Notes under the pieces: generated by a model
Seen by the model: the letters and a program-made list of their open reading frames with translations, nothing else
Databases searched by the model: none
Told to the model about the DNA's origin: nothing
Assembly: GCA_013426785.1 (NCBI GenBank)
Contig: JACDZI010000024.1
Location: forward strand, 1 to 38,892
Source of the DNA: Rhodocyclaceae bacterium
Lineage (GTDB): Bacteria; Pseudomonadota; Gammaproteobacteria; Burkholderiales; Rhodocyclaceae
Length of the DNA stretch: 38,892 nt
Direction: 5' to 3'
Part shown: positions 514 through 37,742 of the stretch, in pieces
Layout of the letters: each line of letters begins with the position of its first letter
Numbering within the stretch: position 1 is the stretch's first letter
Made by a program: the position numbers and the translations under genes

Positions 514-1719
514 ATGACCCCGGTCGCCATCGTCGGCGCCGGCCCGGCCGGCCTGATGGCGGCCGAGGTGATCAGTGCCGCCGGCATCGCGGTGGATGTT
601 TATGACGCGATGCCCACTGCCGGACGCAAGTTACTGCGCGCCGGCATCGGTGGCCTCAACATCACCCATTCCGAGCCCCTGGCTGATTTCCTCACCCGCT
701 ATGGCGAACGACAAGATATCGTCGCGCGCTGGCTGGCCGACTTCGGTCCGCAGGCCTTGCGCGATTGGGCGCGAGGGCTCGGCATCGAGACCTTCATCGG
801 TAGTTCCGGCCGGGTATTTCCGCAGGGCATGAAAGCGGCACCGCTGCTGCGTTCCTGGCTGCAACGGTTACAAACGCAGGGGGTCCGCTTCCACCCGCAG
901 CACCGTTGGCTGGGCTGGACTGACGATGGTGGCTTGCGCTTTGCCACCCCTGACGGCGAAAAAAAAGTCGGCGCTGGCGGGTCGGCCACCGTGTTGGCTT
1001 TGGGCGGTGGCAGCTGGGCACGGCTCGGTGCCGATGGTGCCTGGGTCCCCTTGCTGGCGGCACGCGGCATTCAGGTCGCCCCACTGCGACCGGCCAACTG
1101 CGGTTTCGATGTGAGCTGGAGCGCGCACCTGCGCGAGCGCTGCGCCGGCCAGCCGGTCAAAGGCGTGCTCGCCCGTTTCGGCAACCTGGTGCGGCAAGGC
1201 GATCTGATCCTCACCCGCCACGGTGTCGAGGGCGGGGTGATCTACGCGCTCGCCGCGCCGTTGCGCGATGCGCTGAAACGGGACGGACAGGCCACGCTGA
1301 ACCTCGATCTGGTGCCCGGTCGCGATTCCGCTCGTCTCACTGCCGACTTGCAGCAGCCCCATGGCCACGACTCCTTCGCCAACCATCTGCGGCGACGCGC
1401 CGGCATCACGGGCGCCAAGGCCGCACTGCTATACGAAACGACCGCGGCTGCACAACGCTGCGACCCCGTGCAACTGGCGACAGCGCTCAAGTCACTGCCA
1501 TTGGTACTCGTCGCCCCTCGGCCCATCGACGAAGCGATCAGTACCGCAGGCGGCATCACTTTCAGCGAATTGACCGATGAACTCATGCTGAGACGACTGC
1601 CGAGCACATTCTGCGCTGGGGAAATGCTGGATTGGGAGGCGCCTACCGGCGGCTATTTGCTGTCCGCCTGTTTCGCCAGCGGCCGGATCGCCGGTCGGGG
1701 CGTACTCGCCTATCTATAA
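514..1719 (+). CDS. BaiN/HI0933-like FAD-dependent oxidoreductase (TIGR03862-type flavoprotein)
   Basis: A 401-residue flavoprotein. The start at ATG 514 is chosen because it gives the dinucleotide-binding N-terminus MTPVAIVGAGPAGLMAAE (GxGxxG at residues 8-13). Other family signatures are GRKLLRAGIGGLNITHSE, VLALGGGSWARLGADGAW and the C-terminal TGGYLLSACFASGRIAGRG, which closes the FAD site. The family includes uncharacterised NAD(P)/FAD-dependent oxidoreductases related to HI0933 and BaiN; the substrate is unknown. Residues about 150-158 (KKVGAGGSA) are encoded by a copy of the dispersed 24-base repeat (963-986), placed just before the conserved VLALGGGSW strand, where homologues are expected to vary. 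The gene follows the EF-hand gene after one base, so the two are probably co-transcribed. Confidence 0.85.
   Translation: MTPVAIVGAGPAGLMAAEVISAAGIAVDVYDAMPTAGRKLLRAGIGGLNITHSEPLADFLTRYGERQDIVARWLADFGPQALRDWARGLGIETFIGSSGRVFPQGMKAAPLLRSWLQRLQTQGVRFHPQHRWLGWTDDGGLRFATPDGEKKVGAGGSATVLALGGGSWARLGADGAWVPLLAARGIQVAPLRPANCGFDVSWSAHLRERCAGQPVKGVLARFGNLVRQGDLILTRHGVEGGVIYALAAPLRDALKRDGQATLNLDLVPGRDSARLTADLQQPHGHDSFANHLRRRAGITGAKAALLYETTAAAQRCDPVQLATALKSLPLVLVAPRPIDEAISTAGGITFSELTDELMLRRLPSTFCAGEMLDWEAPTGGYLLSACFASGRIAGRGVLAYL
963..986 (-). repeat. Dispersed 24-bp repeat, copy A (inside the flavoprotein gene)
   Basis: Matches the reverse complement of the family consensus (GCCGT then CCYGCCAGCGCCGACTTTT) with one mismatch. 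On the + strand it begins with an A tract that runs eight bases in total. It is translated as KVGAGGS in the host gene. Confidence 0.8.
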
Positions 1720-1790
1720 CTTTCGTCCAATAGGCAAAACCGCTCTAAGGTTGTACGCTTCGCGCCATTGGGAATCTGGGGAGGAAACCA

Positions 1791-2543
1791 ATGACGGCAG
1801 GGCAGCATCCACCGGGCGCGGTGAGTTGCGCGCAAACAGGATTCTTCGCCATGGCCGACGCCTCGCCAGCGATGATCTGGGTCCGCTGTGTCGCCTGGGT
1901 CGAAGGCGTTCACCCCGATGACCTGCAAGCCTGCGTGGATGCCTATATCCGGCATTTCGACGCCTGGGGCATTTCCTTCTGGAGTACCGTTTGCGCCGTC
2001 ATGACAGCGAATACCGCTGGATTCTCGATTCAGGTACGCCTCGCTATGACAGCACGGGAAATTTCGAGGGCTACAACGGTATCTGCTTCGACATCCACGA
2101 GCGCAAGTTGTGTGAAGAGAAGCAGCGCGCCCTAATCAATAAGCTCGAACATCAGGCACAAACCGACTACCTGACGGGCCTGCCCAACCGTCGCCATTTT
2201 TTCGCGCTGGCGGATCTCGAGTTGAATCGCACACGGCGCTACGGAGGATCCTTGTCCCCGCTGATGATCGACATCGATCACTTCAAGGACATCAATGATC
2301 TTCACGGTCACCAGGCAGGTGACCTCGTTCTGACGACTTTTCTGGAGACCTGCCGCGCCACCCTGCGGGAAATCGATGCGCACCACCCTGCCAGATGGCC
2401 AGTCGGTCGGGATTACCGCCTCGTTCGGCGTGACCAGCGTGACCCAGGAATCGATCAATCTGGACGGGCTGATGCAGCAGACCGATCATGCGTTGTACGG
2501 GGCCAGGCTGGCTGGGTGTAACCGCGTGCTGGCTCACCTCTGA
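1791..2543 (+). pseudogene. Decayed PAS-GGDEF diguanylate cyclase
   Basis: The start (ATG 1791) has a good ribosome binding site (GAGGAA). The N-terminus reads as a PAS domain: FFAMADASPAMIWV, then a jump to WVEGVHPDDLQACVDAYIRHFDA, with the central PAS residues (roughly 20) missing. Near 1980 the frame shifts: the PAS C-terminus EYRLRRHDSEYRWILDSG continues in another frame through GYNGICFDIHERK and the GGDEF N-terminal part DYLTGLPNRRHFFALADLE, MIDIDHFKDIND. After CRATLREID (about 2375) the sequence jumps, again out of frame, to TLPDGQSVGITASFGVTS and a normal GGDEF tail ending at stop 2541-2543. The segment with the catalytic GG(D/E)EF motif is deleted. With at least three lesions, it cannot make an active diguanylate cyclase. 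Boundaries of the lost segments are inferred from family architecture. Confidence 0.85.
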
Positions 2544-2554
2544 ACAATATAGAC

Positions 2555-3442
2555 CTATTCGAGCACCAGCGCCAGCGCCAGTGGGATGAACAGCAAGGAA
2601 CCGAGGTTGCCCAGCATCACCAGGGAGGCGACCTTGCCCGGTTCCTGGTGATAGCGTTCGGCAAAGACGTAGTTGAGTACCGCTGGCGGCAGGGCGCCAA
2701 ACACCAGCAGCATGGTGGCATCCCGCTCCGACAAACCCAAGGCCTTGCCCAGCCCCCAGGCGAGGGTCATCCCGACCAAGGGGCGAAACACTGCACCGAC
2801 CAGGCCGATCCGCAGATCCGAAAATGTCGATACCGCCAGGCGCACCCCCAGCGAAAACAGCAGCAGCGGCACCGCAACATCGCCAACCAGCTTGATCGAC
2901 AGGTAAAGCGGTGGCCAGACCTCGATGCCAGCCAGATTGACAGCGAAGGCCACCAGCGCGGCGAAGGTAACCGGCACCCGCCAGAGGTTCCGCAGACGCG
3001 CATGGTGGTCGAGCAACCACGTGCCGAGCGTGTAGTGCAGCGTATTTTCGACGAAGAACAATACCACGGCGGCCGGCAGGGCGGCCTCGCCGAAGGCCAG
3101 CATCATCAGCGGCAGCCCCATGTTGCCCGCATTGACGAACATCATCGGCGGCGTAAAGGTCTTGGGCTGCTCGCGTAACAACCGGGCCAATCCCCAGGCC
3201 AGCAACCCCGACCCCAACAGCATCACCAGCGCACCGATCGCCAGGCGGTCGAATGCCGCGAGGTCAAAGCTCTTTGCCGTCAGCGCGGCGAACACGAGTG
3301 CCGGGACGAAGATCTCCATGTTGAGCTGGTTGGCGAACGTCATGTCGATGCCGCCGCGGGTATGCCGGTAGCGCGCGTAGAGCCAGCCCGCCACAACGAT
3401 GGCGAAGATCGGAAAAACGATGGCGAGGATGCGCAGCAGCAT
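2555..3442 (-). CDS. Auxin efflux carrier (AEC) family permease
   Basis: A 295-residue, very hydrophobic protein with about ten membrane segments. It has AEC family features: an N-terminal half starting MLLRILAIVFPIFAIVVAGWL, the motif FVNAGNMGLPLMMLAFGE in the middle, and a second homologous half with VLNYVFAERYHQEP near the end. Bacterial members (MdcF/YwkB-type) move malonate, malate or other organic acids; the substrate here is not determinable. It starts three bases after the dctM stop and is the last gene of the TRAP operon. This suggests that both transporters handle the same or related carboxylates, possibly in opposite directions; that is inference. Confidence 0.85.
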   Translation of the reverse strand: MLLRILAIVFPIFAIVVAGWLYARYRHTRGGIDMTFANQLNMEIFVPALVFAALTAKSFDLAAFDRLAIGALVMLLGSGLLAWGLARLLREQPKTFTPPMMFVNAGNMGLPLMMLAFGEAALPAAVVLFFVENTLHYTLGTWLLDHHARLRNLWRVPVTFAALVAFAVNLAGIEVWPPLYLSIKLVGDVAVPLLLFSLGVRLAVSTFSDLRIGLVGAVFRPLVGMTLAWGLGKALGLSERDATMLLVFGALPPAVLNYVFAERYHQEPGKVASLVMLGNLGSLLFIPLALALVLE

Positions 3443-3445
3443 CCC

Positions 3446-4729: not shown

Positions 4730-5202
4730 GGCAGCTTCTTGCGCAGTACGCCGATCAGGCGCAGCAAGATCAGCAGCGACAACAATGGTAGCCAGATCGA
4801 ATACCACCACTGCGGCACCCCCAGCGAGGGGGAGGTCACCTCAAAGCGGTAGTCGTCCCAAGCCATGCGTGTGCCGTACCACGCCAGCAGCCCGAACATC
4901 AATAACGAACTGCCGGTAGCCAGGCGCGCGCCGACACGTCGCAGCGCAGGTTTGTACTCGACCAGGTAACCGATGGCGATGTGGTGGTTGCCGGCAAAGG
5001 CATGGGAAGCACCGACCAGGGTCAGAAAGACCAGCAACACGACCGATACTTCCTCGGTAAAGGCAAAGGAGATGTGGGTGAAGTAACGCACCAGCACGTT
5101 CGCCATGGTCAGCAGGCATAGCGCGCCCATCGACATGGCCATGAGAAAACGCTCGACAGCAGAGAGTCGGTCTCCGCCGTCGTGATGTTGCCCTTCAGTC
5201 AT
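4726..5202 (-). CDS. dctQ: TRAP transporter small permease (DctQ family)
   Basis: A 158-residue protein with four hydrophobic segments, as expected of the TRAP small membrane subunit. Characteristic stretches are TMANVLVRYFTHISFAFTEEVSVVLLVFLTLVGA and the region near residue 130, PSLGVPQWWYSIWLPL, which resembles the family P-x-W motif. It associates with DctM in the inner membrane. It lies between dctP (3-base gap) and dctM (4-base overlap), the usual dctPQM order. Confidence 0.92.
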   Translation of the reverse strand: MTEGQHHDGGDRLSAVERFLMAMSMGALCLLTMANVLVRYFTHISFAFTEEVSVVLLVFLTLVGASHAFAGNHHIAIGYLVEYKPALRRVGARLATGSSLLMFGLLAWYGTRMAWDDYRFEVTSPSLGVPQWWYSIWLPLLSLLILLRLIGVLRKKLP

Positions 5203-5205
5203 GCA

Positions 5206-8374: not shown

Positions 8375-8383
8375 GATTCGGGG

Positions 8384-9325
8384 ATGCCCTCCGAGTTTGC
8401 CCTGATCGACCGTTACTTCAAGCGCCCGACCCGGCACACGGTACTGGGCGTCGGAGACGACGGCGCCATCTTCAGGCTATCAGCGGGCTGCGAACTGGTG
8501 GTGTCGACCGACATGCTGGTGGCGGGTACCCACTTTCTGGCGAACACCGACCCCGAAGACCTCGGCTGGAAATCACTGGCGGTCAATGTTTCGGACCTCG
8601 CAGCTATGGGAGCCCGGCCGAAGTGGGCATTATTGGCCGCAGCCCTGCCAGCGGCGACGGAAGCCTGGATCGAAAAATTTGCGCGTGGTTTTTTTGCCTG
8701 CGCCGACACATTTGGCATCGATGTGATCGGCGGCGATACCACCAAGGGGCCACGCAATTTCTGCGTGACGATCCTCGGCGAGTTGCCGACAGGCACGGCC
8801 TTGCTTCGTTCGGGCGCCTGGCCCGGCGACGAAATCTGGGTTTCCGGAATACCAGGTCGCGCGGCACAGGGGCTCGCACACCTTCAAGGGCATGTGGTCC
8901 TCAGTGAGCCAGCGCTCACCGACTGCCTTGCTGCCCTGTATCGTCCCCAGCCGCGTGTCACACTCGGACTGGCGTTGCGTGGTCTGGCAACCGCCGCCAT
9001 CGACGTTTCCGACGGGCTGCTGGCCGACCTCGGACACATTCTCGATGCCTCCGCCGTCGCCGCCACGCTGACACTCGCCGTCCTGCCGGAGCCGACTTTT
9101 TCTGACAATTGTTATCTTGCCGGCGGCGACGACTACGAACTCTTGTTCACCGTTCCGGCAAGTCACCATGAAGAAGTGCTCACTCTGGCGCAAACCCTTG
9201 CTCTGCAAATCACCTCCCTGGGCCGTATCGAAGCCGGCCCGGCCGGCCAACTGACCGTGCTCGATACCGCTGACCAGCCCGTCAACTTCAGCCGCTGCGG
9301 CTACGACCATTTCGCCTCTCGCTAA
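8384..9325 (+). CDS. thiL: Thiamine-monophosphate kinase
   Basis: A 313-residue ATP-dependent kinase that makes thiamine diphosphate from thiamine monophosphate. Motifs: N-terminal FALIDRYFKR, GVGDDGAIF, the Mg-binding STDMLVAGTHF, VNVSDLAAMGARPKW, GGDTTKGP, IDVSDGLLADLGHIL and GGDDYELLFTVP. Residues 232-239 (AVLPEPTF) are encoded by a copy of the dispersed repeat (9077-9100), in the variable loop before GGDDYELLF. The gene follows nusB by nine bases and precedes pgpA, the usual order. Confidence 0.95.
   Translation: MPSEFALIDRYFKRPTRHTVLGVGDDGAIFRLSAGCELVVSTDMLVAGTHFLANTDPEDLGWKSLAVNVSDLAAMGARPKWALLAAALPAATEAWIEKFARGFFACADTFGIDVIGGDTTKGPRNFCVTILGELPTGTALLRSGAWPGDEIWVSGIPGRAAQGLAHLQGHVVLSEPALTDCLAALYRPQPRVTLGLALRGLATAAIDVSDGLLADLGHILDASAVAATLTLAVLPEPTFSDNCYLAGGDDYELLFTVPASHHEEVLTLAQTLALQITSLGRIEAGPAGQLTVLDTADQPVNFSRCGYDHFASR
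9077..9100 (+). repeat. Dispersed 24-bp repeat, copy B (inside thiL)
   Basis: GCCGT followed by CCTGCCGGAGCCGACTTTT. It is identical over all 24 bases to copy E inside rsmG, about 20.8 kb away, although the two are translated in different frames (here AVLPEPTF). It differs from the majority form at two positions. Confidence 0.8.
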
Positions 9326-9341
9326 CCCTAACCCTGCTGTC

Positions 9342-9845
9342 ATGTCCAAAACACCCGCCCCACCTTTCTCCTTCCTGCTGCAACATCCTGCACACCTGAT
9401 CGCCTGCGGTTTCGGCAGCGGCCTGTCGCCGATTGCCCCCGGCACCGCCGGCACACTGTTCGCCTGGCTGACTTTCCCGTTGGTGCATAGCGCGTTTCCC
9501 GATGACCTGGGTTTCGGCATCTTTATGCTGCTGGCCTTCCTGCTGGGCTTGACCGCCTGTCAGATTGCCGGCCGGGCGCTTGGGGAGATGGACCACGGCA
9601 GCATCGTCTGGGACGAGATCGCACCCTTCTGGGCCGTGCTTTTTTTCACGCCCGCCGTCTGGCTGTGGCAGTTGGCCGCCTTCGCTGCCTTCCGCTTTTT
9701 CGATATCGTCAAACCACCGCCTGCAAGCTATTTTGACCAAAAAGTGAAAAATGGCTTCGGCGTGATGATGGACGACGTGATTGCCGCAGCCTATGCCATC
9801 CTGACACTGGCGCTGTCCAAGGCAGTGATGGACCGTCTGTTCTGA
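9342..9845 (+). CDS. pgpA: Phosphatidylglycerophosphatase A
   Basis: A 167-residue membrane phosphatase that dephosphorylates phosphatidylglycerophosphate to phosphatidylglycerol. Family features: HLIACGFGSGLSPIAPGTAGTL near the N-terminus, the catalytic acidic motif DHGSIVWDEIAPFWAVL in the middle, RFFDIVKPPPASYFDQKVKNGFGVMMDDVIAA near the end, and three to four hydrophobic segments. Its stop overlaps the pncC start (TGATG). Linkage thiL-pgpA-cinA is common in proteobacteria. Confidence 0.95.
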   Translation: MSKTPAPPFSFLLQHPAHLIACGFGSGLSPIAPGTAGTLFAWLTFPLVHSAFPDDLGFGIFMLLAFLLGLTACQIAGRALGEMDHGSIVWDEIAPFWAVLFFTPAVWLWQLAAFAAFRFFDIVKPPPASYFDQKVKNGFGVMMDDVIAAAYAILTLALSKAVMDRLF

Positions 9846-10354
9846 TGGACCGGGAATTGGCAAAAATTTCTGAGGCCTTCGGTGCGGCGTGTCGCCGGTA
9901 TCGACTGACGATCGCCACGGCCGAATCCTGCACCGGCGGCTGGGCCGCCCAAGTGATCACTCACACGGCGGGTAGTTCGGCCTGGTTCGAACGCGGCTTC
10001 GTCACCTATACAAACACAGCGAAAACAGATATGCTTGGTGTTCGCATGGACACCATATTGACATTTGGCGCGGTCAGCCTTGAAACGGCAGGAGAAATGG
10101 CTACCGGAGCACTGCAAAACTCCAAGTCACTGGTCGCGCTGGCGATCACCGGGGTTGCCGGCCCGGCCGGTGGCTCGCCGGACAAGCCGGTCGGCACCGT
10201 CTGCTTTGCCTGGTGCTGGCGCAACACCCAAGGCCAAATCGATGTGCCGTCCTGCGAGCGCCGACTTTTTCCCGGTGATCGGGAAGCCATTCGGCGTCAA
10301 GCGGTAATTCATGCGCTTTCTGGCTTGCTAGATCGCGCAAGAAACATGCCATAA
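9845..10354 (+). CDS. pncC: Nicotinamide-nucleotide amidohydrolase (CinA C-terminal domain protein)
   Basis: A 169-residue, single-domain CinA-C protein. It deamidates nicotinamide mononucleotide to nicotinate mononucleotide in pyridine nucleotide salvage. Motifs: [18 protein letters not shown] (catalytic Ser/Lys region), [43 protein letters not shown], and [17 protein letters not shown]. The N-terminal MoaB-like domain of full CinA is absent, as is normal in Gram-negatives. Residues about 134-142 (VPSCERRLF) are encoded by a dispersed-repeat copy (10246-10269), just before the conserved GDRxxIR motif. recA follows 28 bases later. Confidence 0.94.
10246..10269 (+). repeat. Dispersed 24-bp repeat, copy C (inside pncC)
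   Basis: GCCGT followed by CCTGCGAGCGCCGACTTTT, one mismatch from copy H. It is read as VPSCERRLF, a different frame from the other in-gene copies. Confidence 0.75.
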
Positions 10355-19800: not shown

Positions 19801-20691
19801 ATGGTTAAACCCTTGCTGCTCGTCGTTGAAGACGAACCGATCAGCCTCGAAGTACTGGTTGATATCCTGCATGAATACGGTTACGCAACGGTGACTGCCA
19901 CCACAGGGGCTGGGGCATGCTCGCTGATTGAAGAGTACGGTGCCCGGCTTGATGGCATCCTGCTTGATCGCTTGCTACCCGACATGGATTCACTCAACCT
20001 ACTGGTCAAGCTGAAGAGTGTTCCCGCCCTAACCCACTTACCCGTCATCATGCAGACTTCGTTGTCTGCCGAGCAGGACATTGCCGATGGCTTGAAAGCT
20101 GGTGCCTACTATTACCTGACCAAGCCCTTCCTGCCTGCCACACTCTTGGCGATCGTCCGCTCCGCCGTCAAGGATCGGTATGAATACCCCGAATTGCAGC
20201 AGAGCCTGCTACAGACTCGCGGCATTCTCAAGAATCTACGTCATGCCGAATTCTGCTTCACCACTCAAGGAGAAGCCCGCGCTCTCGCCACTTTGACCGC
20301 CCATGTCGCTCCCGACCCCGAGCGCGTCGTCCTTGGTCTTACCGAGCTGATGCTGAATGCGGTCGAACACGGTAATCTCGGCATTGCCTATGCCGAGAAA
20401 TCGGCTTTGATCGCTGCCAATGCGCTCGAGAGCGAAGTTGAACGTCGCCTCAAGTTACCGGAGTTTTCCCACCGCCTGGCGCGATTGAAAATCGACCGTG
20501 ATCTCGAAATTGTCAGGTTCGAGATCATCGATGAGGGCAGGGGCTTCGACTGGCAGCCTTTTATGGAAATGTCGCCTTCCCGCGCCTTCAACACTCACGG
20601 CCGGGGCATCGCTATGTCCAAACTATTGAGTTTCGACCAGATGGAATATCGTGGCTGCGGCAATGAGGTCGTCGGCCTGATCAGCCTGTAG
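19801..20691 (+). CDS. Response regulator with HATPase_c (serine/histidine-kinase-type ATPase) output domain
   Basis: A 296-residue protein. The N-terminal receiver domain (residues 1 to about 120) has acidic pair E10-D11, the phosphoacceptor D56 in ILLDRLLPDMDS, Thr in VIMQTS and Lys in YLTKPF. After a helical linker (PELQQSLLQTRGILKNLRHAEF) comes a GHKL ATPase-like domain: N box LTELMLNAVEHGNLGI, G1 DEGRGFDW, G2 THGRGIAMSKLLSFDQMEY. There is no HisKA domain, so the output resembles RsbW-type anti-sigma kinases or phosphatase-partner ATPases rather than a histidine kinase. Its target is unknown. It lies 14 bases after ubiJ, probably in the same transcript, and ends before a strong terminator. 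Confidence 0.85.
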   Translation: MVKPLLLVVEDEPISLEVLVDILHEYGYATVTATTGAGACSLIEEYGARLDGILLDRLLPDMDSLNLLVKLKSVPALTHLPVIMQTSLSAEQDIADGLKAGAYYYLTKPFLPATLLAIVRSAVKDRYEYPELQQSLLQTRGILKNLRHAEFCFTTQGEARALATLTAHVAPDPERVVLGLTELMLNAVEHGNLGIAYAEKSALIAANALESEVERRLKLPEFSHRLARLKIDRDLEIVRFEIIDEGRGFDWQPFMEMSPSRAFNTHGRGIAMSKLLSFDQMEYRGCGNEVVGLISL

Positions 20692-20696: not shown

Positions 20697-20720
20697 GCCG
20701 TCCCGCCAGCGCCGACTATT
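20697..20720 (+). repeat. Dispersed 24-bp repeat, copy D (intergenic, beside terminator)
   Basis: GCCGT followed by CCCGCCAGCGCCGACTATT, one mismatch from copy G. It lies six bases after the response-regulator stop and just before the convergent terminator hairpin. Confidence 0.8.
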
Positions 20721-28647: not shown

Positions 28648-29432
28648 GTTGCTCGCCTCTCCGTTTCCCATGTTTTTGCCCGCTCGATCATTTCATGTGC
28701 GAAGGCCAGATAGGCCTGTGCCCCCTTTGCATTCTTGTCAAACAATATTCCCGGCACGCCATAGCTCGGTGCCTCGGCCAATCGCACGTTGCGCGGTACC
28801 AGTGTCTTGAATACCTTGTCGCCGAAATGCTGCTCCAACTGTGCCGACACCTGATTCGACAGCGTAGAGCGGGGGTCGAACATCACGCGCAGCAGGCCAA
28901 TGATCTTGAGATCCCGGTTGAAATTCTTGTGCACCTGCTTGATGGTGTTGACCAGATCGGACAGGCCTTCGAGCGCGTAGTACTCGCACTGCATCGGGAT
29001 GATCACCCCGTGCGCCGCGCACAGGCCGTTGAGCGTCAACATCGATAGCGAAGGCGGACAATCGATCAGCACGAAATCGGTATTGCCGACATGTTCGGCC
29101 AGCGCCTTTTTCAGGCGCAACTCGCGCTGCTCCAGATCAACCAGTTCCACTTCGGCACCCGCGAGATCGCGATTGGCAGGCATTACGGCATAGTGGCCCG
29201 ACGGAGATACCGTACACACTTCGTCGAGGGTGGCGAGTCCCAGTAGTACGTGGTAAACCGAGCGTGGCAGGGTGCGCTTGTCGATGCCGCTGCCCATGGT
29301 GGCATTGCCCTGCGGATCGAGATCGATCAGTAACGTGCGCTGCCCGGCCTGGGCGAGGGCGGCCGCGAGGTTGACGGAAGTGGTGGTTTTGCCGACCCCG
29401 CCCTTCTGGTTGGCGATGGCGAAAATGTGCAT
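28644..29432 (-). CDS. parA: Chromosome partitioning ATPase ParA
   Basis: A 262-residue Soj-type ParA. The deviant Walker A is KGGVGKTTTSVNLAAALA, with LLIDLDPQGNATMGSGID and DFVLIDCPPSLSMLTLNGLCAAHGVIIPMQCEYYALEGLSDL following. It is a short chromosomal ParA without an N-terminal helix-turn-helix. The start at 29432 ([12 protein letters not shown]) overlaps the rsmG stop (TGATG). Confidence 0.97.
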   Translation of the reverse strand: MHIFAIANQKGGVGKTTTSVNLAAALAQAGQRTLLIDLDPQGNATMGSGIDKRTLPRSVYHVLLGLATLDEVCTVSPSGHYAVMPANRDLAGAEVELVDLEQRELRLKKALAEHVGNTDFVLIDCPPSLSMLTLNGLCAAHGVIIPMQCEYYALEGLSDLVNTIKQVHKNFNRDLKIIGLLRVMFDPRSTLSNQVSAQLEQHFGDKVFKTLVPRNVRLAEAPSYGVPGILFDKNAKGAQAYLAFAHEMIERAKTWETERRAT

Positions 29433-30049
29433 CAGGTTTTCTCCAGTTGAAGCAAATGACGCTCGGCCGCAAGGCCGGGAACAACGAGGCGGTGTGATTC
29501 GGCCACGCGCCAACCGGCGGGCAGGGCGGCGATTTCATCGGCAGGATACTCGCCCTTCATCGCCCACAGACAATCCGCCAACGGCCCGGCCAGGCAAACG
29601 AAATCCCCAAGGCTGGCAAAAGCGCGGGAGATGACTGCATCGAACCTATAGTCGCAAGATTGAACACGGGCGCAGTGAATGCTCACATTAACCAAGCCCA
29701 GCTCAATCTTCGCCTGGCGCTGAAAAGCCGCTTTTTTCTCGACCGTTTCGATGGAGGACACCATCCAGTCGGGCCGGGAGATGGCCAGCACCAGACCCGG
29801 CAGACCGGCGCCGCTGCCAATGTCTGCAAGGGTAAAACGCCGTCCTGCCGGAGCCGACTTTTCAACTATGGGTATCACCGCAAGGGAATCGAGCAGGTGA
29901 TGCGTGACCATCTCATCCGGGTCACGGATGGCGGTCAAGTTGTAGGTCTTGTTCCATTTTTCCAGCAGAGTGAGATAGGCCCCGAGCTTAGCTTCCGCTC
30001 CCGCCGGCAGGTTCAAGCCCGCTGCGGCAATGCCTTCGGTCAGGTTCAT
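29432..30049 (-). CDS. rsmG: 16S rRNA (guanine527-N7)-methyltransferase RsmG
   Basis: A 205-residue SAM-dependent methyltransferase of 16S rRNA G527. Motifs: [35 protein letters not shown], then [22 protein letters not shown] (SAM site), [13 protein letters not shown] and [19 protein letters not shown]. The start at 30049 overlaps the mnmG stop (ATGA). Residues 63-71 (EKSAPAGRR) are encoded by a dispersed-repeat copy, placed between the HLLDSLAV helix and the SAM-binding strand, where length varies in the family. Confidence 0.96.
29839..29862 (+). repeat. Dispersed 24-bp repeat, copy E (inside rsmG)
   Basis: Identical over 24 bases to copy B in thiL. It runs antisense to rsmG, so the gene reads it as KSAPAGR. 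Confidence 0.8.
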
Positions 30050-31920
30050 CCGCGCAATCTCTTCAGATGAACCAGCAGCACGGCAATCGCTGCGGGCGTC
30101 ACGCCCTGGATGCGGCTGGCCTGCCCGACGGTCTGCGGCCGATGCTGGGCCAGGCACTGGCGGACCTCGAACGAGAGTCCATTGAGCGCCGCGTAATCGA
30201 GGTCGGCCGGGATCGGCTGATTTTCCTGCGCCGCCATCTTCGCCACTTCCTCTTTCTGCCGCACGATGTAGCCGTGGTACTTGGCCTGGATATCCACCTG
30301 CTCGATGATGTCGGCCGCTTCGAGCGGAGCGCCGGCGCCGGGCAATGTCATCAGGTCGGCATAGCCCACCTCGGGACGGCGGAGCAGTTCGAACAGGCTG
30401 TATTCGCGCTCGATCGGCTTGCCCAGCACCCGTTCGACTTCGTGCATCGCCACCACGTTCGGGTTGATCCAGACATGCCGGAGGCGTTCGACCTCGGCTG
30501 CGATGGCATCGCGCTTGCGGTTGAACACATCCCAGCGCACATCATCGACCAGCCCGAGCCGGCGGCCCGCTTCGGTCAGGCGCAGGTCGGCATTGTCCTC
30601 GCGCAGGCTGAGCCGAAACTCGGCGCGGCTGGTGAACATCCGGTAGGGTTCGCTGACGCCGCGAGTGATCAGGTCATCCACCAGCACCCCCAGATAGGCT
30701 TCGTCGCGGCGCGGCCACCAACCCTCCAGCCCTTTGGTCTGCCGGGCTGCGTTCAGTCCGGCCAGCAGTCCCTGGGCGGCCGCCTCCTCATAACCAGTGG
30801 TGCCGTTGATCTGCCCGGCAAAGAACAGCCCGCCGATGGCCTGCGTCTCCAGCGTCGCCTTGAGTGCCTGCGGATCGAAATAATCATATTCGATCGCATA
30901 GCCGGGCCGGGTGATGTGGCAGCGTTCGAGGCCGCGGATCGAATGGACCAGCTCCAGTTGCACGTCGAAGGGTAGGCTGGTCGAGATGCCTTGCGGATAG
31001 TATTCGTGCGTCGTCAGCCCCTCGGGTTCGAGGAAGATCTGATGGGCATCTTTGCCCGCGAACTTGTGGATCTTGTCCTCGATCGACGGGCAGTAACGCG
31101 GCCCGACCCCCGCGATCACACCGGTAAACATCGGCGAGCGATCCAATCCGCCACGAATGATGTCGTGCGTATGGGCATTCGTATGGGTAATCCAGCAGGG
31201 CACCTGGCGCGGATGTTGCTCGGCATTGCCGAGGAAGGAAAACACCGGCACCGGGTCTTCGCCCGGCTGTTCCTGCATCACGGAGAAATCGATGGTCTTG
31301 CCGTCGAGCCGGGGTGGTGTGCCGGTCTTCAGTCGCCCGACCGGCAGTAGCAATTCGCGCAGGCGTTCTGCCAGCGATAGTGATGGGGGATCGCCGAAGC
31401 GTCCGGCGCGGTATTGTTCCAGCCCGACATGGACTTGTCCGTTCAGGAAAGTGCCGGCGGTCAGCACCACCGTGGGCGCCTCGAAATGCACTCCAAGCTG
31501 CGTCACCACCCCGGTCACCCTGTCACCCGCAACCGTGATGTCATCGACCGCCTGCTGGAACAAGGTCAGGTTCGATTGGTTTTCCAGCCGGTGGCGAATC
31601 GCCTCACGATACAGCGCGCGGTCGGCCTGCGCCCGGGTCGCGCGCACCGCCGGCCCCTTCGAGGCATTGAGGGTGCGGAACTGGATGCCCGCCTCGTCGG
31701 TCGCCGCCGCCATCGCTCCGCCGAGCGCATCCACCTCGCGGACCAGATGACCCTTGCCGATCCCGCCGATCGACGGGTTGCAGGACATGGCCCCCAGCGT
31801 TTCGATGTTGTGGGTCAGCAGCAGCGTCTGCGCGCCCATGCGTGCCGCAGCGAGCGCCGCCTCGGTGCCGGCATGGCCGCCACCGATCACGATGACATCG
31901 AATCTTTGCGGGTAAAGCAT
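30046..31920 (-). CDS. mnmG: tRNA uridine-5-carboxymethylaminomethyl modification enzyme MnmG
   Basis: A 624-residue FAD protein that, with MnmE, modifies wobble uridine 34 of tRNAs. FAD-binding N-terminus [23 protein letters not shown], the signature [24 protein letters not shown], the second signature [22 protein letters not shown], and the C-terminal MnmE/tRNA-binding domain ([40 protein letters not shown]) are clear. Full length. A dispersed-repeat copy ends two bases before the ATG, so no Shine-Dalgarno is visible. Confidence 0.98.
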
Positions 31921-31922
31921 GA

Positions 31923-31946
31923 AAAAGTCGGCGATGGCAGGACGGC
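31923..31946 (-). repeat. Dispersed 24-bp repeat, copy F (mnmG leader)
   Basis: On the - strand GCCGT followed by CCTGCCATCGCCGACTTTT, one mismatch from copy H. It ends two bases from the mnmG start codon and occupies the place where a ribosome binding site would be expected. Confidence 0.8.
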
Positions 31947-31987
31947 AGAAGGGGGCGAATGATACGCCGAAGACCCTGCTGTTTTAC

Positions 31988-32003
31988 TGTTTCACGTGAA
32001 ACC
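31988..32003. other. parS: parS-like centromere site 1
   Basis: TGTTTCACGTGAAACC matches the conserved ParB-binding palindrome TGTTTCACGTGAAACA at 15 of 16 positions. It lies at the upstream end of the mnmG-rsmG-parA-parB operon. Confidence 0.88.
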
Positions 32004-32011
32004 GCAGCTAG

Positions 32012-32027
32012 AGTTTCACGTGAAACA
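32012..32027. other. parS: parS-like centromere site 2
   Basis: AGTTTCACGTGAAACA matches the parS palindrome at 15 of 16 positions. Its centre is 24 bases from that of site 1; the second half is perfect. Confidence 0.88.
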
Positions 32028-32029
32028 TA

Positions 32030-32779
32030 TCAATCTTTCCTGCCACCTAAACCGAGGTAGGCCTCGACCACCTTCGGATCATCGGCCAAAGCATCGGATT
32101 CGCCAGCCAGTGCAATCTCGCCGGTTTCGAGAACGTAACCATAGTCCGATACCTGTAACGCCGCCCGCGCATTCTGCTCAACCAGCAGGATCGCCACGCC
32201 GAGCGCACGCAGGTCGGAAATGACGCGGAAGATCTCGCGCACGATCAGCGGCGCCAGACCCAGACTCGGCTCGTCTAGCATGAGGATCTTCGGTTGCGCC
32301 ATCAGGGCACGGCCCACCGCCAGCATCTGGCGTTCGCCGCCCGACAGCGTGCCGGCCATCTGCTGATGTCGTTCCTTGAGGCGTGGGAAGATGCTGTAAA
32401 CCTTGTCCAGCGTCTGCTGTTCATCGCGAAAACCGAGCCGCCTGCGCATGAAGGCGCCCAACAGCAGGTTGTCGGCCACGCTCATTTCGCCGAACAATTC
32501 GCGCTTCTCCGGCACCAGCGTCATGCCGCGTGCCACCATCTGCTCGATGTCGATGTGCCGATACACCTCGCCCTGATAGCGCACTTCCCCACTACCGAAC
32601 GGCAACACACCCATGATAGCGGCGAGCAGGGTCGTCTTGCCGGCGCCGTTCGGCCCAATCACCGTGACGATCTGACCCGGTTGCACCTTGAGCGAGACAT
32701 GATGGAGCGCCTCGACCTTGCCGTAAGAGACGCAGAGGTCGCTGACATCCAATATTGGCACCAGGATCGGTTCCGTCAT
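32030..32779 (-). CDS. livF: Branched-chain amino acid-type ABC transporter ATP-binding protein LivF
   Basis: A 249-residue ATPase. Walker [10 protein letters not shown], signature GTLSGGERQMLAVGRALM, Walker B KILMLDEPSLGLAPLIV and switch His in LLVEQNARAALQVSDYGYVLETG (the LivF-type EQN). It powers a LivHM-type permease. The start overlaps the livMG stop by ATGA. The substrate is an amino acid or amide-like compound by family; it is not certain that it is a branched-chain amino acid. Confidence 0.95.
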   Translation of the reverse strand: MTEPILVPILDVSDLCVSYGKVEALHHVSLKVQPGQIVTVIGPNGAGKTTLLAAIMGVLPFGSGEVRYQGEVYRHIDIEQMVARGMTLVPEKRELFGEMSVADNLLLGAFMRRRLGFRDEQQTLDKVYSIFPRLKERHQQMAGTLSGGERQMLAVGRALMAQPKILMLDEPSLGLAPLIVREIFRVISDLRALGVAILLVEQNARAALQVSDYGYVLETGEIALAGESDALADDPKVVEAYLGLGGRKD

Positions 32780-34578
32780 TCCACACCCCCGAGATACGCC
32801 TCGATTACCGCCGGATCAATCTGCACCTCGTGCGGCAGGCCCTCGGCGATCTTCTTGCCGAACTCCATCACCACCACCCGGTCGGCCAGATCCATGACGA
32901 ATTCCATGTCGTGCTCGACCAGCAGCACACCCATGCCTTCGGCGCGCAACTGTTTCAGCAGCTCGGCCAGCGCCTGCTTTTCGAGGAAACGCAAGCCGGC
33001 GGCCGGTTCGTCGAGCAGCAGCAGGCAGGGATCCGCCGCCAACGCCCGGGCAATTTCGACGATGCGCTGCTTGCCGAGCGGCAGGCTGCCGGCGGCATCA
33101 TCGAGGTGCATGCCCAAACCGACCCGCTCGCACTGGCGGGCCGCCTCGGCCAGCAGGCGAAGCTCTTCGCCGCGCTCGAGATGCAACATGGCCACCGGTA
33201 CGCCGTGCCGGCCGCGCATGTGAGCGCCGAGGGCAACGTTCTCCAGCACCGTCATGCCGGCCAGCAGGCGCACATGCTGAAAGGTGCGGCTCATGCCCAT
33301 GCGCGCGATAGTGCGAGAATTCAGGCCGGCAACAGCCTCACCGAGAAAGTGCACTTCGCCGGACGTGGGCGGATCGACGCCGGTAATCAGATTGAACAGG
33401 GTCGACTTGCCGGCGCCATTCGGACCGATCAGGGCGAGGATCTCGCCGGCCGATACCGCGAGATTCATCCGGTCGTTGGCCAGCAGGCCGCCGAACTGCT
33501 TGACGGCATCCTTAACCTCAAGCAGTCGCGTGCCGCCCGACGGCACGGCCCGGCGGGGCAGGGGTTCGGCCTCACGCAGCCGTCCCGCCAGCGCCGACTT
33601 TTGCTCCGGCACCCAGCGCGCCAGCCAGGGCCAGAGGCCATCGCGAGCGCGGTGCAGCACCACGATCATCAGCAGGCCGAAGGCGATCACCTCGAAATTG
33701 CCGGTGGCGCCGAACAACTGCGGCAGCAGGTCCTGCAGCCACTGCTTGAGGATGGTGATGACCGCCGCCCCGACCAGCGCTCCCCAGACGTGCGCGGCCC
33801 CGCCGATCACCGCCATGAACAGGTATTCGATGCCGATGTGCAGGCCGAAGGGCGTCGGATTGACGAAGCGTTGCAGGTGGGCGTAGAGCCAACCCGACAG
33901 GCAGGCGAACAGGGCAGCCAGTACGAAGATGACCAGCTTGGCGCGGCCGGTATCGACGCCCATCGCCTCGGCCATCACCACGCCGCCCTTGAGCGCACGG
34001 ATGGAACGCCCGGCGCGCGAATCGAGCAGGTTGCGCGTCAGCCAGACCGCCATCAGAAGTACCAACCAGATCAGGTAGTAATAATGGCGGCCGTCGCGCA
34101 GTTCGAAGCCAGCCAGGCTCAAGGAAGGAATGCCGCTGATGCCGGTGTGACCGCCGAGGAATTCGAGGTTGCCGAACAAGAAGTAAAGCGAGATGCCCCA
34201 GGCGATGGTGCCCAGCGGCAGGTAGTGGCCCGACAGGCGCAGTGTCAGGAGGCCGAGCAGCAAGGCTACCAGGGCCGTAACCACCATGCCGGCGACCAAC
34301 CCGCCCCAGGGATTCGCCAGCAGGCCCATCCAGGCGGGCAGGTTGGTGGCCGTCGTCAGCCAGGCGGTCGCATAGGCACCGAGCCCGACGAAGGCGGCCT
34401 GGCCGAAGGAAGTGAGACCGCCGACCCCTGTCAGGAGGACCAGCCCGAGCGCCACCAGCGCATACAGGCCGATGTAGTTGAGCAGGGTGATATGGAATTC
34501 CGGCAGGAACTGCGGCCCGAGGACCAGCAGGACCAGGAACACGCCGAGGATGGGGCCGGGCGCCAGCAAGGACCTCAT
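32776..34578 (-). CDS. Fused ABC transporter permease (LivM) and ATPase (LivG)
   Basis: A 600-residue protein joining two normally separate subunits. Residues 1 to about 322 are a LivM permease: LLTGVGGLTSFGQAAFVGLGAYATAWL, LPLGTIAWGISLYFLFGN, the coupling region RNLLDSRAGRSIRALKGGVVMAEAMGVD and IGIEYLFMAVIGGAAHVWGALVGA. Residues from about 352 are LivG: Walker A GPNGAGKST, GMSRTFQHVRLLAGMTVLENV, signature [16 protein letters not shown], Walker B LLLLDEPAAGL and LLVEHDMEFVMDLADRVVVMEFG. The linker (about 323-351) holds a dispersed-repeat copy read as QKSALAGRL (residues 326-334). ATG 34578 overlaps the livH stop by ATGA; the open frame further upstream is only the shadow of livH. Such fusions are known in the family. 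Confidence 0.94.
   Translation of the reverse strand: MRSLLAPGPILGVFLVLLVLGPQFLPEFHITLLNYIGLYALVALGLVLLTGVGGLTSFGQAAFVGLGAYATAWLTTATNLPAWMGLLANPWGGLVAGMVVTALVALLLGLLTLRLSGHYLPLGTIAWGISLYFLFGNLEFLGGHTGISGIPSLSLAGFELRDGRHYYYLIWLVLLMAVWLTRNLLDSRAGRSIRALKGGVVMAEAMGVDTGRAKLVIFVLAALFACLSGWLYAHLQRFVNPTPFGLHIGIEYLFMAVIGGAAHVWGALVGAAVITILKQWLQDLLPQLFGATGNFEVIAFGLLMIVVLHRARDGLWPWLARWVPEQKSALAGRLREAEPLPRRAVPSGGTRLLEVKDAVKQFGGLLANDRMNLAVSAGEILALIGPNGAGKSTLFNLITGVDPPTSGEVHFLGEAVAGLNSRTIARMGMSRTFQHVRLLAGMTVLENVALGAHMRGRHGVPVAMLHLERGEELRLLAEAARQCERVGLGMHLDDAAGSLPLGKQRIVEIARALAADPCLLLLDEPAAGLRFLEKQALAELLKQLRAEGMGVLLVEHDMEFVMDLADRVVVMEFGKKIAEGLPHEVQIDPAVIEAYLGGVE
33579..33602 (+). repeat. Dispersed 24-bp repeat, copy G (LivM-LivG junction)
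   Basis: GCCGT followed by CCCGCCAGCGCCGACTTTT, the majority form. It lies antisense to the fused livMG gene, within the interdomain linker, and is read as KSALAGR. Confidence 0.82.
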
Positions 34579-35618
34579 TCCTCTTCCTCGACATGACGAC
34601 TGGTCAGCGAGCGCCATACCAGCACCGGGATGATCAGGGTAAAGACGATCACTTCCTTGAAGGCCGAAGCATAGAAGGAGGAAAAGGATTCCAGCAGCCC
34701 GACCAGCAATGCACCCGCCGCCGCCACCGGATAGCTGACCAGCCCGCCGATGATGGCACCGACAAAGCCCTTGAGGCCGACCAGAAAGCCGGTGTCGTAA
34801 TAGATGGTGGTGATCGGCGCGATCAGGATGCCGGACAGGGCGCCGATCGCTGCCGCCAGCAGGAAGGTCAGCTTGCCGGCCAGCGTGGTCGAAATGCCCA
34901 TCAGCCGCGCGCCGGAGCGATTGATCGCCGTTGCCCGCAGCGCCTTGCCGTAGAGACTGCGGCCAAAGAAGATATACAACGCGACGATCAGCACGGCGCT
35001 GGCACCCACCACCCACAGGCTCTGCCCGGTGATGGTCAGGCCGCCGACCTCGAACGCCGCTTCCGAGAAGGCTGGCGTGCGCGAACCCTCGGCGCCGAAA
35101 AACAGCAGGCCCAGCCCAACCAGCGCCAGATGCAGGGCCACCGCAACAATCAGCAGGATCAGCACCGGCGCCTCGGCGATCGGCTGGAAGGCGACGCGGT
35201 ACAACTGCGGCCCGAGCGGTACCACCACCGCGAGCGCCAGCAGCACTTGCAGCAGCAGCGGCCAATCTTTCGGCGCGGCGCCGGCGGCACCGAACACCAG
35301 CCCGATCATGACGAGTGGATAGACGAGCTGACGCGCGACGAGTCCGGCCAGTTGCCGCGAACCCTGCCGCCAAGCGTGCGGGGCATCGATGGCGGTCACC
35401 GCCACGCCAAGGCCGAGCAACAGCCATAGCGTGCCGGGGGCCTGGCCGGCCTGCAGGCTGGCCAGCGTCAAGGCACCATAGGCGACGAATTCGCCCTGCG
35501 GGATGAAGATCACGCGCGTCACGGCAAACACCAGCACGAGGGCGAGCGACAGCAAGGCGTAGATCGCACCGTTGACGATGCCATCCTGCCCGAGCAGCAG
35601 CGCGATTTGCAGATCCAT
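34575..35618 (-). CDS. livH: Branched-chain amino acid-type ABC transporter permease LivH
   Basis: A 347-residue membrane permease. N-terminus QIALLLGQDGIVNGAIYALLSLALVLVFAVTRVIFIPQGEFVAYGAL is typical of LivH. The coupling region RSLYGKALRATAINRSGARLMGIS and the C-terminal GFLVGLKGFVGAIIGGLVSYPVAAAGALLVGLLESF are conserved. The middle is longer than in E. coli LivH, adding extra hydrophobic segments (residues about 70-150). It is the first permease gene after livK, separated by a hairpin. Confidence 0.94.
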   Translation of the reverse strand: MDLQIALLLGQDGIVNGAIYALLSLALVLVFAVTRVIFIPQGEFVAYGALTLASLQAGQAPGTLWLLLGLGVAVTAIDAPHAWRQGSRQLAGLVARQLVYPLVMIGLVFGAAGAAPKDWPLLLQVLLALAVVVPLGPQLYRVAFQPIAEAPVLILLIVAVALHLALVGLGLLFFGAEGSRTPAFSEAAFEVGGLTITGQSLWVVGASAVLIVALYIFFGRSLYGKALRATAINRSGARLMGISTTLAGKLTFLLAAAIGALSGILIAPITTIYYDTGFLVGLKGFVGAIIGGLVSYPVAAAGALLVGLLESFSSFYASAFKEVIVFTLIIPVLVWRSLTSRHVEEEE

Positions 35619-35647
35619 CGGGTCCCCTTGCCAGCCCCTACAAACAA

Positions 35648-35681
35648 CAAGGGCGCCGCATCCAGAAGAGCGGCGCCCTTG
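35648..35681 (-). terminator. Hairpin between livK and livH
   Basis: A perfect 12-bp stem (CAAGGGCGCCGC with GCGGCGCCCTTG) closes a 10-base loop. On the - strand it is followed by TTGTTTGT. It lies in the 81-base gap downstream of livK. It is probably a partial terminator or RNA-stabilising hairpin that lets the binding protein be made in excess over the membrane subunits. Confidence 0.8.
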
Positions 35682-35699
35682 CTCCGAAGTGGCCGGATT

Positions 35700-36851
35700 C
35701 TACTGGATCAGTTTCCAGTCACCATTCTCGACCTTCACCATCACGCGGGCGCGCTGATCGAAACCGAGGTGATCCTGCGCCGACATATTGACGATGCCGT
35801 GCGAGACGGTGATGTTCTTGAGCCCCTCCAGCGCATCGCGCAGCGCCAGCTTGAACTCCTTGCTGCCCGGCTTGCCTTTCTTGAGGGCAACCGGCACCGC
35901 ATTGGCCAGCAGCAGGCCGGCATCCCAGGCATGTGCGCCAAAGGTGGAGGTGCTGCCCTTGCCATGTGCCGCCTCGTACTTGCCGACATAATCGAGCGCC
36001 ACCTTCTTGATCGGGTTGTCGGCCGGCAACTGCGCGGCGATCAGCACCGGGCCGGCCGGCAGGAAAGTGCCTTCGCAGTCCTTGCCGCAGACGCGCAGGA
36101 AGTCCTTGTTGGCCACGCCGTGGGTCTGGTAGAAGGCGCCCTTGTATCCCTTTTCCTTCAAGGCCTTCTGCGGCAGCGCGGCGGGGGTGCCGGAACCGGC
36201 GATCAGCACCGCATCGGGCTTGGCCGCCATCATCTTGAGTACCTGGCCGGTCACCGAAGTATCGGCGCGGTTGTAGCGCTCGTTGGCGACGATCTGTAGT
36301 TTGCGGGCCTCGGCGATCTTGCTGAATTCGTTGAACCAGCCCTCGCCGTAGGCGTCGGCAAAGCCGATGAAGGCCACCGTCTTCACGCCGGCGCTGGTCA
36401 TGTGCTCGACGATGGCCGTGGACATCTGGATGTCGTTCTGCGGCGTCTTGAACACCCATTTGACCTTCGGGTTGGCCGTATCGACAATGCGCGAGGAAGC
36501 CGCCATCGAGATCATCGGCGTCTCGGCCTCGGCGGCAATGTCGATCATCGCCAGCGAGTTCGGGGTGATGGTGGAACCGACGATCACATCCACCTTGTCT
36601 TCGGTCAGCAGTTTGCGGGTATTCTTCACCGCCGTGGTGGTGTCGGACGCGTCGTCGAGGATGAGGAAGTTGACCTTCTCGCCGCCAATGGTCGTCGGCA
36701 TCAGCGCGAAAGTATTCTTCTCGGGAATGCCCAGCGAGGCAGCCGGGCCGGTCGCCGAGACCACCACACCCACATTGATGTCGGCCAGCACCGGTGCCGC
36801 AAACGCCGCCGTAATGGCGACCGCCAGCAGTGACTTCAGCTTCAGGTTCAT
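35700..36851 (-). CDS. livK: Periplasmic substrate-binding protein of the LivKHMGF-type transporter
   Basis: A 383-residue type I periplasmic binding protein with a signal peptide (MNLKLKSLLAVAITAAFAAPVLA, residues 1-23). Family features: INVGVVVSATGPAASLGIPEKNTFALMP, FLILDDASDTTTAVKNTRKLLTEDKVDVIVGSTITPNSLAMIDIAAEAETPMISMAAS (ligand site), KTVAFIGFADAYGEGWFNEF. The start at 36851 has a strong ribosome binding site, GGAGGAG, and is preferred over 36893. The ligand could be a branched-chain amino acid, an aromatic acid or another small molecule; the sequence alone does not decide. Confidence 0.93.
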   Translation of the reverse strand: MNLKLKSLLAVAITAAFAAPVLADINVGVVVSATGPAASLGIPEKNTFALMPTTIGGEKVNFLILDDASDTTTAVKNTRKLLTEDKVDVIVGSTITPNSLAMIDIAAEAETPMISMAASSRIVDTANPKVKWVFKTPQNDIQMSTAIVEHMTSAGVKTVAFIGFADAYGEGWFNEFSKIAEARKLQIVANERYNRADTSVTGQVLKMMAAKPDAVLIAGSGTPAALPQKALKEKGYKGAFYQTHGVANKDFLRVCGKDCEGTFLPAGPVLIAAQLPADNPIKKVALDYVGKYEAAHGKGSTSTFGAHAWDAGLLLANAVPVALKKGKPGSKEFKLALRDALEGLKNITVSHGIVNMSAQDHLGFDQRARVMVKVENGDWKLIQ

Positions 36852-36937
36852 GAATCTCCTCCGAATATTTTTTGAGAACGGCGAATTTATCATCGCTCCG
36901 TCCCGCCGTCCATGAACTTGTCAGGGTTATCCGCCCA

Positions 36938-37711
36938 TCACGCCATCAGGATATCCCAGCCGATCTTGCCGATCAGCAGGCTGGTCATGACGAGAAAGAC
37001 GACGCGCACGAAACCGCTGCCATGCTTGATGGCAAGTTTACTGCCGAGCTGCGCCCCGGCGATGTTGCACACCGCCATGCCAAGGCCAAGCATCCACAAC
37101 ACATGGCCCTGCGGCACGAACAGCAGCAGGGCGCCGGCGTTGGTGGCGGCATTGACGACTTTCGCCGTCGCCGAGGCATGCAGGAAATCCATGCCGAACA
37201 GGCGCACGAAGGCAAAGATCATGAAACTGCCCGCGCCGGGCCCGAAGAATCCGTCGTAGAAACCGAGCACCATCCCGCACAGCAGCGCCACCGGCAGAGC
37301 GTGCCGGGGCGCCACGCGCGACGCCTGCGCCTGCTTGCCGAAATCGGGCTTGGTCCAGGTGTAAATCGCCACCGCCACCAGCAGCCACAGCACCAGCGGC
37401 CGCACCACCTCCCTCGGCAGCCAGGCCACGGTCGCCGCGCCGAGGAAGGAAAGGGCGAAGGCGGCGAGCGCGGTCGGCACGGCAATCGCCCAGGGCATCT
37501 CGACCTCGCGGACGTAGCGGCGCGCGGCATTCAGCGTGCCGAAGATCGAGGCGAGCTTGTTGGTGCCGAACAGCGTCGCCGGGCTTTCCTTCGGCAGGCC
37601 GGCGAACAACGCCGGCACCTGGATCAGCCCACCGCCGCCAGCCACCGCATCGACGAAGCCGGCGAAGGTGGCGGCAACCAGAAACATCAACCAAAGGGGA
37701 TCAATTGCCAC
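36938..37711 (-). CDS. TauE/SafE (TSUP) family membrane permease
   Basis: A 257-residue protein with about eight membrane segments. Family motifs are present in both halves: FVDAVAGGGGLIQVPALFAGLPKESPATLFGTNKLASIFGT near residues 18-58 and GFYDGFFGPGAGSFMIFAFVRLFGMDFLHASATAKVVN in the second half, followed by AGAQLGSKLAIKHGSGFVRVVFLVM. Members export sulfite, sulfoacetate or other organosulfur or organic anions. The start is GTG 37711; the nearest purine-rich stretch (AGGACGG) belongs to dispersed-repeat copy H. Confidence 0.9.
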   Translation of the reverse strand: MAIDPLWLMFLVAATFAGFVDAVAGGGGLIQVPALFAGLPKESPATLFGTNKLASIFGTLNAARRYVREVEMPWAIAVPTALAAFALSFLGAATVAWLPREVVRPLVLWLLVAVAIYTWTKPDFGKQAQASRVAPRHALPVALLCGMVLGFYDGFFGPGAGSFMIFAFVRLFGMDFLHASATAKVVNAATNAGALLLFVPQGHVLWMLGLGMAVCNIAGAQLGSKLAIKHGSGFVRVVFLVMTSLLIGKIGWDILMA

Positions 37712-37718
37712 GATGTGT

Positions 37719-37742
37719 GCCGTCCTGCCAGCGCCGACTTTT
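37719..37742 (+). repeat. Dispersed 24-bp repeat, copy H (between integrase and TSUP gene)
   Basis: GCCGT followed by CCTGCCAGCGCCGACTTTT. It begins eight bases upstream of the TSUP GTG start and its T tract overlaps the integrase stop codon. Confidence 0.8.

Follow-up and report, generated by a model that had tools for sequence, protein, structure and literature searches.

Two families, the Pasteurellaceae and the Neisseriaceae, have species known for strong preferences in DNA uptake (PMC7811141). According to PMC1939737, 65% of the known uptake sequences lie within open reading frames in H. influenzae and 35% in N. gonorrhoeae; they are not palindromes, exceed expectation in noncoding DNA and show no orientation bias. 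The uptake signal sequence (USS) of the Pasteurellaceae, whose predicted receptor is ComN/PpdA (PMC12616744), is 31 bp at full length in the model and recurs fairly evenly at a spacing of about 1 kb (PMC7811141). Here we describe a 24-bp sequence, GCCGTCCYGCCAGCGCCGACTTTT, of which eight copies occur in a stretch of 38,892 nucleotides (the window; contig JACDZI010000024.1) from a Rhodocyclaceae bacterium. Judging from sequence patterns, we consider it likely that this 24-mer serves as a DNA uptake sequence, by which the natural-transformation machinery of the cell recognises free DNA as self; its binding, its uptake, the competence of its hosts and the identity of the receptor protein are parts of the system that we infer. 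In the open-access literature searched, we found no report of uptake sequences for Rhodocyclales, Rhodocyclaceae, Burkholderiales or betaproteobacteria, which is not proof of their absence from print. The only motif letters found there were the 12-letter word of one relative (G028; G numbers denote genomes), in two unrelated papers.

The eight copies lie at the positions and on the strands given in the original prediction, which was made from the window alone, and are as nearly identical as it held (zero to two mismatches to GCCGTCCYGCCAGCGCCGACTTTT; the copies at 9077 and 29839 do agree letter for letter). Its claim that they exceed chance is borne out twice: 100 dinucleotide shuffles contained no copy, and the whole-genome search it had proposed returned 734 copies at up to three mismatches in 3.24 Mb (241 contigs; 356 forward and 378 reverse), while the reversed pattern, used as a control over the whole genome, returned none at that threshold. 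The density is about one copy per 4.4 kb, or per 3.5 kb at up to five mismatches. In 429 kb of the genome, copies with zero to five mismatches number 45, 40, 16, 11, 6 and 2, with only background beyond, and the reversed control gives none up to five. The motif is over-represented on both strands, in genes and between them. When over-represented words were sought de novo, blind to the motif, its pieces came out first in this genome and in G017; the same scan of 305 kb of the motif-free G005 found no comparably abundant word. Conservation begins about one pyrimidine ahead of the G and extends through the last T; the unit holds about 38 bits over 24 bp, with sharp edges in the logo and nearly uninformative flanks. 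The constant T-tract end that had been claimed holds only in part: the ends are sharp, but the copy at 20697 ends in TATT, and some relatives, G017 and G016 among them, are less strict at position 24. By inspection, single copies have no hairpin or dyad, in agreement with the original prediction. In a collection of 2.9 million viral contigs, exact copies were found in only 27 stretches, a raw count with no expectation attached.

How the copies came to be where they are can be judged from orthologous sites. We aligned window sites with same-genus orthologs at about 65-82% DNA identity and scored the motif at up to five mismatches; the counts cover the sites other than the one at 29839. The copy at 9077..9100 (+; two mismatches) lies within a thiL-like gene (8384-9325, +; AIRS domains, name inferred), where it encodes the peptide AVLPEPTFS. 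Of 16 other genomes of the genus, 11 have the motif at this site, and the thiL orthologs that are free of it (G002, G003, G005 and G017) have equal length at the site, with no gap. At the cinA site (10246..10269, +; one mismatch; gene 9845-10354, +; peptide VPSCERRLF), the motif is present in all 16 other genomes aligned, and protein constraint may contribute. A third copy (31923..31946, -; one mismatch) ends 2 bp ahead of the mnmG start codon (30046-31920, -), and nine of 15 other genomes aligned have the motif there. The perfect copy at 33579..33602 (+) is antisense to a fused branched-chain amino acid ATP-binding cassette (ABC) transporter gene (32776-35427, -), between its permease and ATPase domains. 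Among ten other genomes, this site holds the motif in the same orientation in three and inverted in six, and lacks it in one.

A wider comparison took in 52 scorable orthologous pairs (11 in G005, 9 in G016 and 32 in G017). The motif is kept at 13 of the 32 sites in G017, inverted at two and matched in part at four; in G016 it is kept at five of nine and inverted at two; for each genome, one of 120 controls has the motif. Of the 26 orthologs without the motif, 17 are equal in length, two are shorter by 18-30 bp, five are longer by at least 6 bp and two differ in other ways. At most compared sites, the 24-mer arises in place and not by insertion. This bears directly on the "defined mobilised unit" of the original prediction, that is, a mobile repeat of very small size, each insertion of which adds one 24-bp unit, like a small dispersed repeat (SDR) or a miniature inverted-repeat transposable element (MITE). 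Sharp ends, a high copy number and the two shorter orthologs would suit such a unit, but the 17 orthologs of unchanged length, the gapless thiL alignments in motif-free species and a strong preference among reading frames speak against it, and neither a concerted change of letters in G016 nor dialects with constant ends and different middles (both described below) are expected of inserted copies. We regard a mobile repeat as very unlikely and already largely refuted; insertion as the general mode was rejected because most motif-lacking orthologs have the same length and copies are inverted in place.

The motif has a rigid two-part geometry. When the anchors GCCGY and GA[CG]TTT were sought at spacers of 8-16 in G000, they occurred at 194 places with a spacer of 12 and at 1-12 places with each other spacer. 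Ten other sampled motif-bearing genomes have the same single main peak at 12, the weakest being G094 (5 versus 0-1), and G005 has no spacer peak. A minor peak at spacer 15 (12 places in G000, six in G149 and four in G028) arises because a GCC stands just before the motif (11/12, 5/6 and 4/4, respectively; 20/22 together). Motif-blind word counts in nine further genomes put the motif or a relative of it at the top in six (G026, G087, G105, G149, G094 and G028); for G040, G094 and G105, the choice of stretches was guided in part by matches already known, which biases the densities there upward. Two of these genomes have dialects, GCCGTnn..CCAGCGTCGACTTTT in G094 and GCCGTn....GGGACTGACTTTT in G028 (28 sites in 100 kb), which retain the N12 spacing and have constant ends with different middles. 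Lineage dialects around a constant core are thus observed.

A third relative, G016, is of the same genus and has changed its letters in concert. Letter 5 is altered in 12 of 12 sampled sites (to C) and letter 20 in 11 of 12 (to G in 10), while the genome of the window has T at 5 and C at 20 in 204 of 233 sites; over the whole of G016 there are 199 copies at up to three mismatches and only 10 exact GCCGT-N12-GACTTT. That the same letter changes are shared by so many sites points to a reader molecule with an altered preference. Such changes, like the in-place inversions, could also follow from a changing master copy if the motif played no part in uptake and its copies were overwritten inside the cell from a template, either an RNA or, through gene conversion, a master copy. 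We hold that to be extremely improbable: neither a master locus nor a responsible enzyme is known in this system (no search for one was made), the flanks are not common to the copies, and the decay spectrum and the spacing are simpler under biased uptake.

We picture such an uptake label as follows. A DNA receptor at the cell surface, probably a type IV minor pilin, would bind GCCGT and GACTTT at a fixed distance, together with a dialect-specific middle. Fragments bearing the label would be taken up preferentially and recombined, and alleles with a match to the label would displace those without one, so that the label would accumulate wherever the sequence is free to change. Over-representation, evolution in place, permissive placement, few short gaps, dialects of rigid geometry and concerted dialect change support the uptake-sequence reading, as do the absence of the motif from sampled stretches that are constrained or of atypical GC content and its near restriction to one family. 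We see about an even chance that this is a third, independently evolved uptake-sequence system, in which the receptor measures rigid anchors 12 bp apart with a swappable middle. If so, it would be a two-part code unlike the single short core of the neisserial DNA uptake sequence (DUS), spread over at least 10 genera of one betaproteobacterial family, and close relatives would be seen to differ by a switch of dialect across the whole genome (G016) and by nearly complete loss (G005, G202 and G285). Should a third family have a motif and dialects of its own, with apparent losses, one could test by comparison across genera how such labels originate, why some lineages abandon them and which pilin reads them, and natural transformation would be routine in a group of presumably environmental bacteria.

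The placement of the copies is permissive. Among 238 copies, 133 lie in called genes, 15 across a gene edge and 90 outside. The true number in genes is at least this high, because the genes were called with a crude program based on codon usage (79% coding), which overlooked, among other real genes, cinA and rsmG. Since 78% of random positions are genic, the copies are enriched outside genes, yet they are frequent inside. The 133 genic copies are divided among the six frames as 48, 30, 27, 18, 5 and 5, with four main frames, and the common peptides they encode are mild (KVGAGGT, RPASADF, AVPPAPT and KSALAGR). Both orientations and four main frames are used; protein constraint, which the original prediction had named as the finding that could undo it, is therefore rejected as a general cause. 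Gaps of less than 500 bp number 13, versus 31 expected, and this scarcity makes the spacing more even than random (coefficient of variation 0.77 versus 0.94; none of 2000 simulations was as low). Copy density climbs with GC content (rho 0.65 over 75 windows of 10 kb). Two of 41 sampled 20-kb stretches hold no copy, and both have low GC content: one holds a ribosomal operon (RpoA, S4, S5, EF-Tu and EF-G among its called genes, 5/12), and the other holds a polysaccharide-type cluster (nucleotide-sugar and related enzymes, 5/7 called genes). Another zero-copy stretch, of 10 kb, lies in L183. The strand split between the two halves of the chromosome in G017 is 17/24 and 24/18 (P 0.19; 83 copies in 380 kb, which gives weak power).

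The spread of the motif was counted in the genus, the family and the order. Of 19 same-genus genomes, including that of the window, 18 hold 199-734 copies, and G005 holds none. Among 249 genomes of the family, 28 have at least 185 copies, from six of 68 genera, and the other 221 have at most 30; the bipartite form GCCGT-N12-GACTTT occurs at 50 or more places in 36 of the 249, from ten genera, with reversed controls at no more than 11 per genome. In 386 genomes from other families of the order, the bipartite maximum is 18, and the reversed control reaches 24 in one of them, G455. That genome belongs to genus g111 (f44), where the reversed control TTTCAG-N12-TGCCG is unusually frequent; it resembles the reverse complement of the Neisseria DUS, so that g111 may be DUS-bearing. 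The nearest named records by MnmG are of Rhodocyclales type, and one of them, UBA6160, carries one copy with one mismatch and one with two in 13.6 kb; the other 79 of 80 named loci (3.9-22 kb each) have none at up to four mismatches, and a word count in 49 of the 80 showed no clear relative of the motif, negatives that are weak because the stretches are short. Apparent near-total losses are seen in G005 (0 copies), G202 (5 bipartite) and G285 (19 24-mers), whose sister species keep hundreds; we regard the three as natural experiments on the loss of the system.

These losses bear on another explanation, that the 24-mer is recognised by a DNA-binding protein inside the cell (for chromosome organisation, replication, repair or two-part restriction-modification) and is kept by selection at hundreds of sites. 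A rigid two-part geometry with dialects would suit any sequence-specific protein, and the shortage of short gaps would agree with one. However, about 38 bits per site appears far above what marking a 3-Mb genome needs, there is no strand bias between chromosome halves (a comparison of weak power), the sampled ribosomal operon lacks the motif, and the few or no copies in G005, G202 and G285, beside copy-rich sisters, indicate that the motif is dispensable. We consider such a binding site unlikely.

As to a reader molecule, the genome encodes a minor-pilin operon, the first product of which (140 amino acids, four cysteines) passes the Pfam model ComP_DUS (PF16732) at 36.8 bits (cut-off 27.3). 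The operon lies downstream of genes that we take to be lspA/fkpB/ispH-like. After the ComP-like pilin come a FimT/GspH-like protein, PilV, PilW, a protein in the PilX position and one of PilY1 size, the PilX and PilY1 labels being given by position and size alone. On its sequence, the ComP-like pilin is a candidate, and only a candidate, for the receptor of the 24-mer. A profile search of PDB sequences returned generic type IV pilins, including a PilE, so that ComP and PilE are indistinguishable by it. PF16732 is present in 28 of 30 genomes, including the motif-poor G005, G202 and G285, and ComEC is in 18 of 19 same-genus genomes and 74 of 81 relatives overall. None of the ComEC, ComP-like and FimT/GspH-like genes tracks the motif, and all were rejected as markers of it; the ComP-family pilin does not follow the motif as it would under a system of the neisserial DUS type.

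Several observations weigh against an uptake role. Among 81 relatives, motif-bearing or not, 72 encode the pilin family, which was not detected in the motif carriers G094 and G185, nor in the incomplete G012 and G015; FimT/GspH was found in 27 of 31 and not detected in the carriers G028, G094, G095 and G185; and ComEC is so nearly universal as to be uninformative. Only 52 orthologous pairs could be scored, two of the 26 that lack the motif do fit insertion (the copy in the genome of the window being 18-30 bp longer), and the motif sites are more prone to insertions and deletions than controls, of which 94%, 78% and 96% show no length change in G005, G016 and G017, respectively; the excess is as expected of permissive positions. 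Words other than the motif lead the counts in G040, G161 and G118 (20 kb for G118). The conserved stretch, about 38 bits over 24 bp, exceeds the 10-12 bp of a DUS. The evenness of spacing comes from the shortage of short gaps alone, as gaps of more than 8 kb number 12 versus 9.5 for random placement, and copy counts per 20 kb are Poisson-like; the link of density to GC content could stem from tolerance of a GC-rich word alone. Finally, close inverted pairs, common in Neisseria, are rare here (2/196 neighbouring gaps).

Those two inverted pairs (L115:13031-13108 and L120:19799-19880) form long hairpins that end in T runs (-61 and -53 kcal/mol) and could act as terminators; as a general role, terminator function was rejected because only two of 196 neighbouring gaps hold such a pair. 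The four window copies not yet described occupy varied sites. The one at 963..986 (-; one mismatch) lies within an HI0933-like flavoprotein gene (271-1719, +; Pfam PF03486), the peptide in the gene frame being KKVGAGGSA. The copy with the TATT end (20697..20720, +; one mismatch) begins 5 bp past the stop codon of a gene (19801-20691, +) for a protein that combines response-regulator and ATPase domains, and that at 29839..29862 (+; two mismatches) is antisense within rsmG/gidB (29432-30157, -). A perfect copy (37719..37742, +) separates two genes that stand 29 bp apart, a TauE/SafE gene (36938-37711, -) and one of the phage-integrase family (37741-38724, -); the final two bases of the copy overlap the end of the second gene. 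Near the copy at 31923, upstream of mnmG, are two GTTTCACGTGAAAC sites (31989-32002 and 32013-32026), which we take to be parS-like. Two kinds of added sequence were seen at window sites in other genomes. In cinA and rsmG of G015 and G007, the motif is interrupted or bordered by insertions of about 100 bp or longer, and part of it recurs on the far side of the insert; the site may be favoured by another small element. The thiL orthologs of G012 and G009 have up to 33 bp extra beside the motif, with a second GCCGTC start, which may be a slipped or doubled motif.

How, then, does the 24-mer compare with the known systems? Small dispersed repeats, MITEs and the repetitive extragenic palindromic (REP) elements with their associated tyrosine transposases (REP-RAYT) are likewise short, dispersed and present in high copy number. 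Unlike these, the 24-mer has no hairpin in single copies (by inspection) and no general signature of insertion, its dialects shift in concert, and its copies are frequent in genes; it is, again by inspection, no imperfect palindrome, and it is not confined to extragenic DNA, with 133 of 238 copies in called genes. The letters of the USS are, we assume, unrelated to those of the 24-mer. Like the USS, for which self-preference is a feature, the 24-mer is long and distributed relatively evenly, but its spacing is about 3 kb versus about 1 kb (PMC7811141). Its placement patterns match those given for known uptake sequences in PMC1939737. From the DUS of the Neisseriaceae (GCCGTCTGAA and its dialects, with the receptor ComP; PMC3630211), it differs in being a 24-bp motif with two anchors, GACTTT standing near the 3' end, in occurring in a different family and in that the pilin family is also encoded by motif-free genomes. 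At the position of the CTG of the DUS core, letter 8 is T in 38 of 120 copies and C in 81, so that GCCGTCCTG is the less frequent form and GCCGTCCCG the more frequent one. The likenesses to DUS, as described in PMC3630211, are several: both sequences occur in high copy number, in genes and between them, in permissive regions; the 5' half of the 24-mer starts with GCCGT(C), as does the 10-mer GCCGTCTGAA; the host genome, like those of DUS hosts, encodes a pilin of the ComP_DUS family; and the shifts in the letters of the 24-mer resemble the neisserial dialects, which vary around a constant core.

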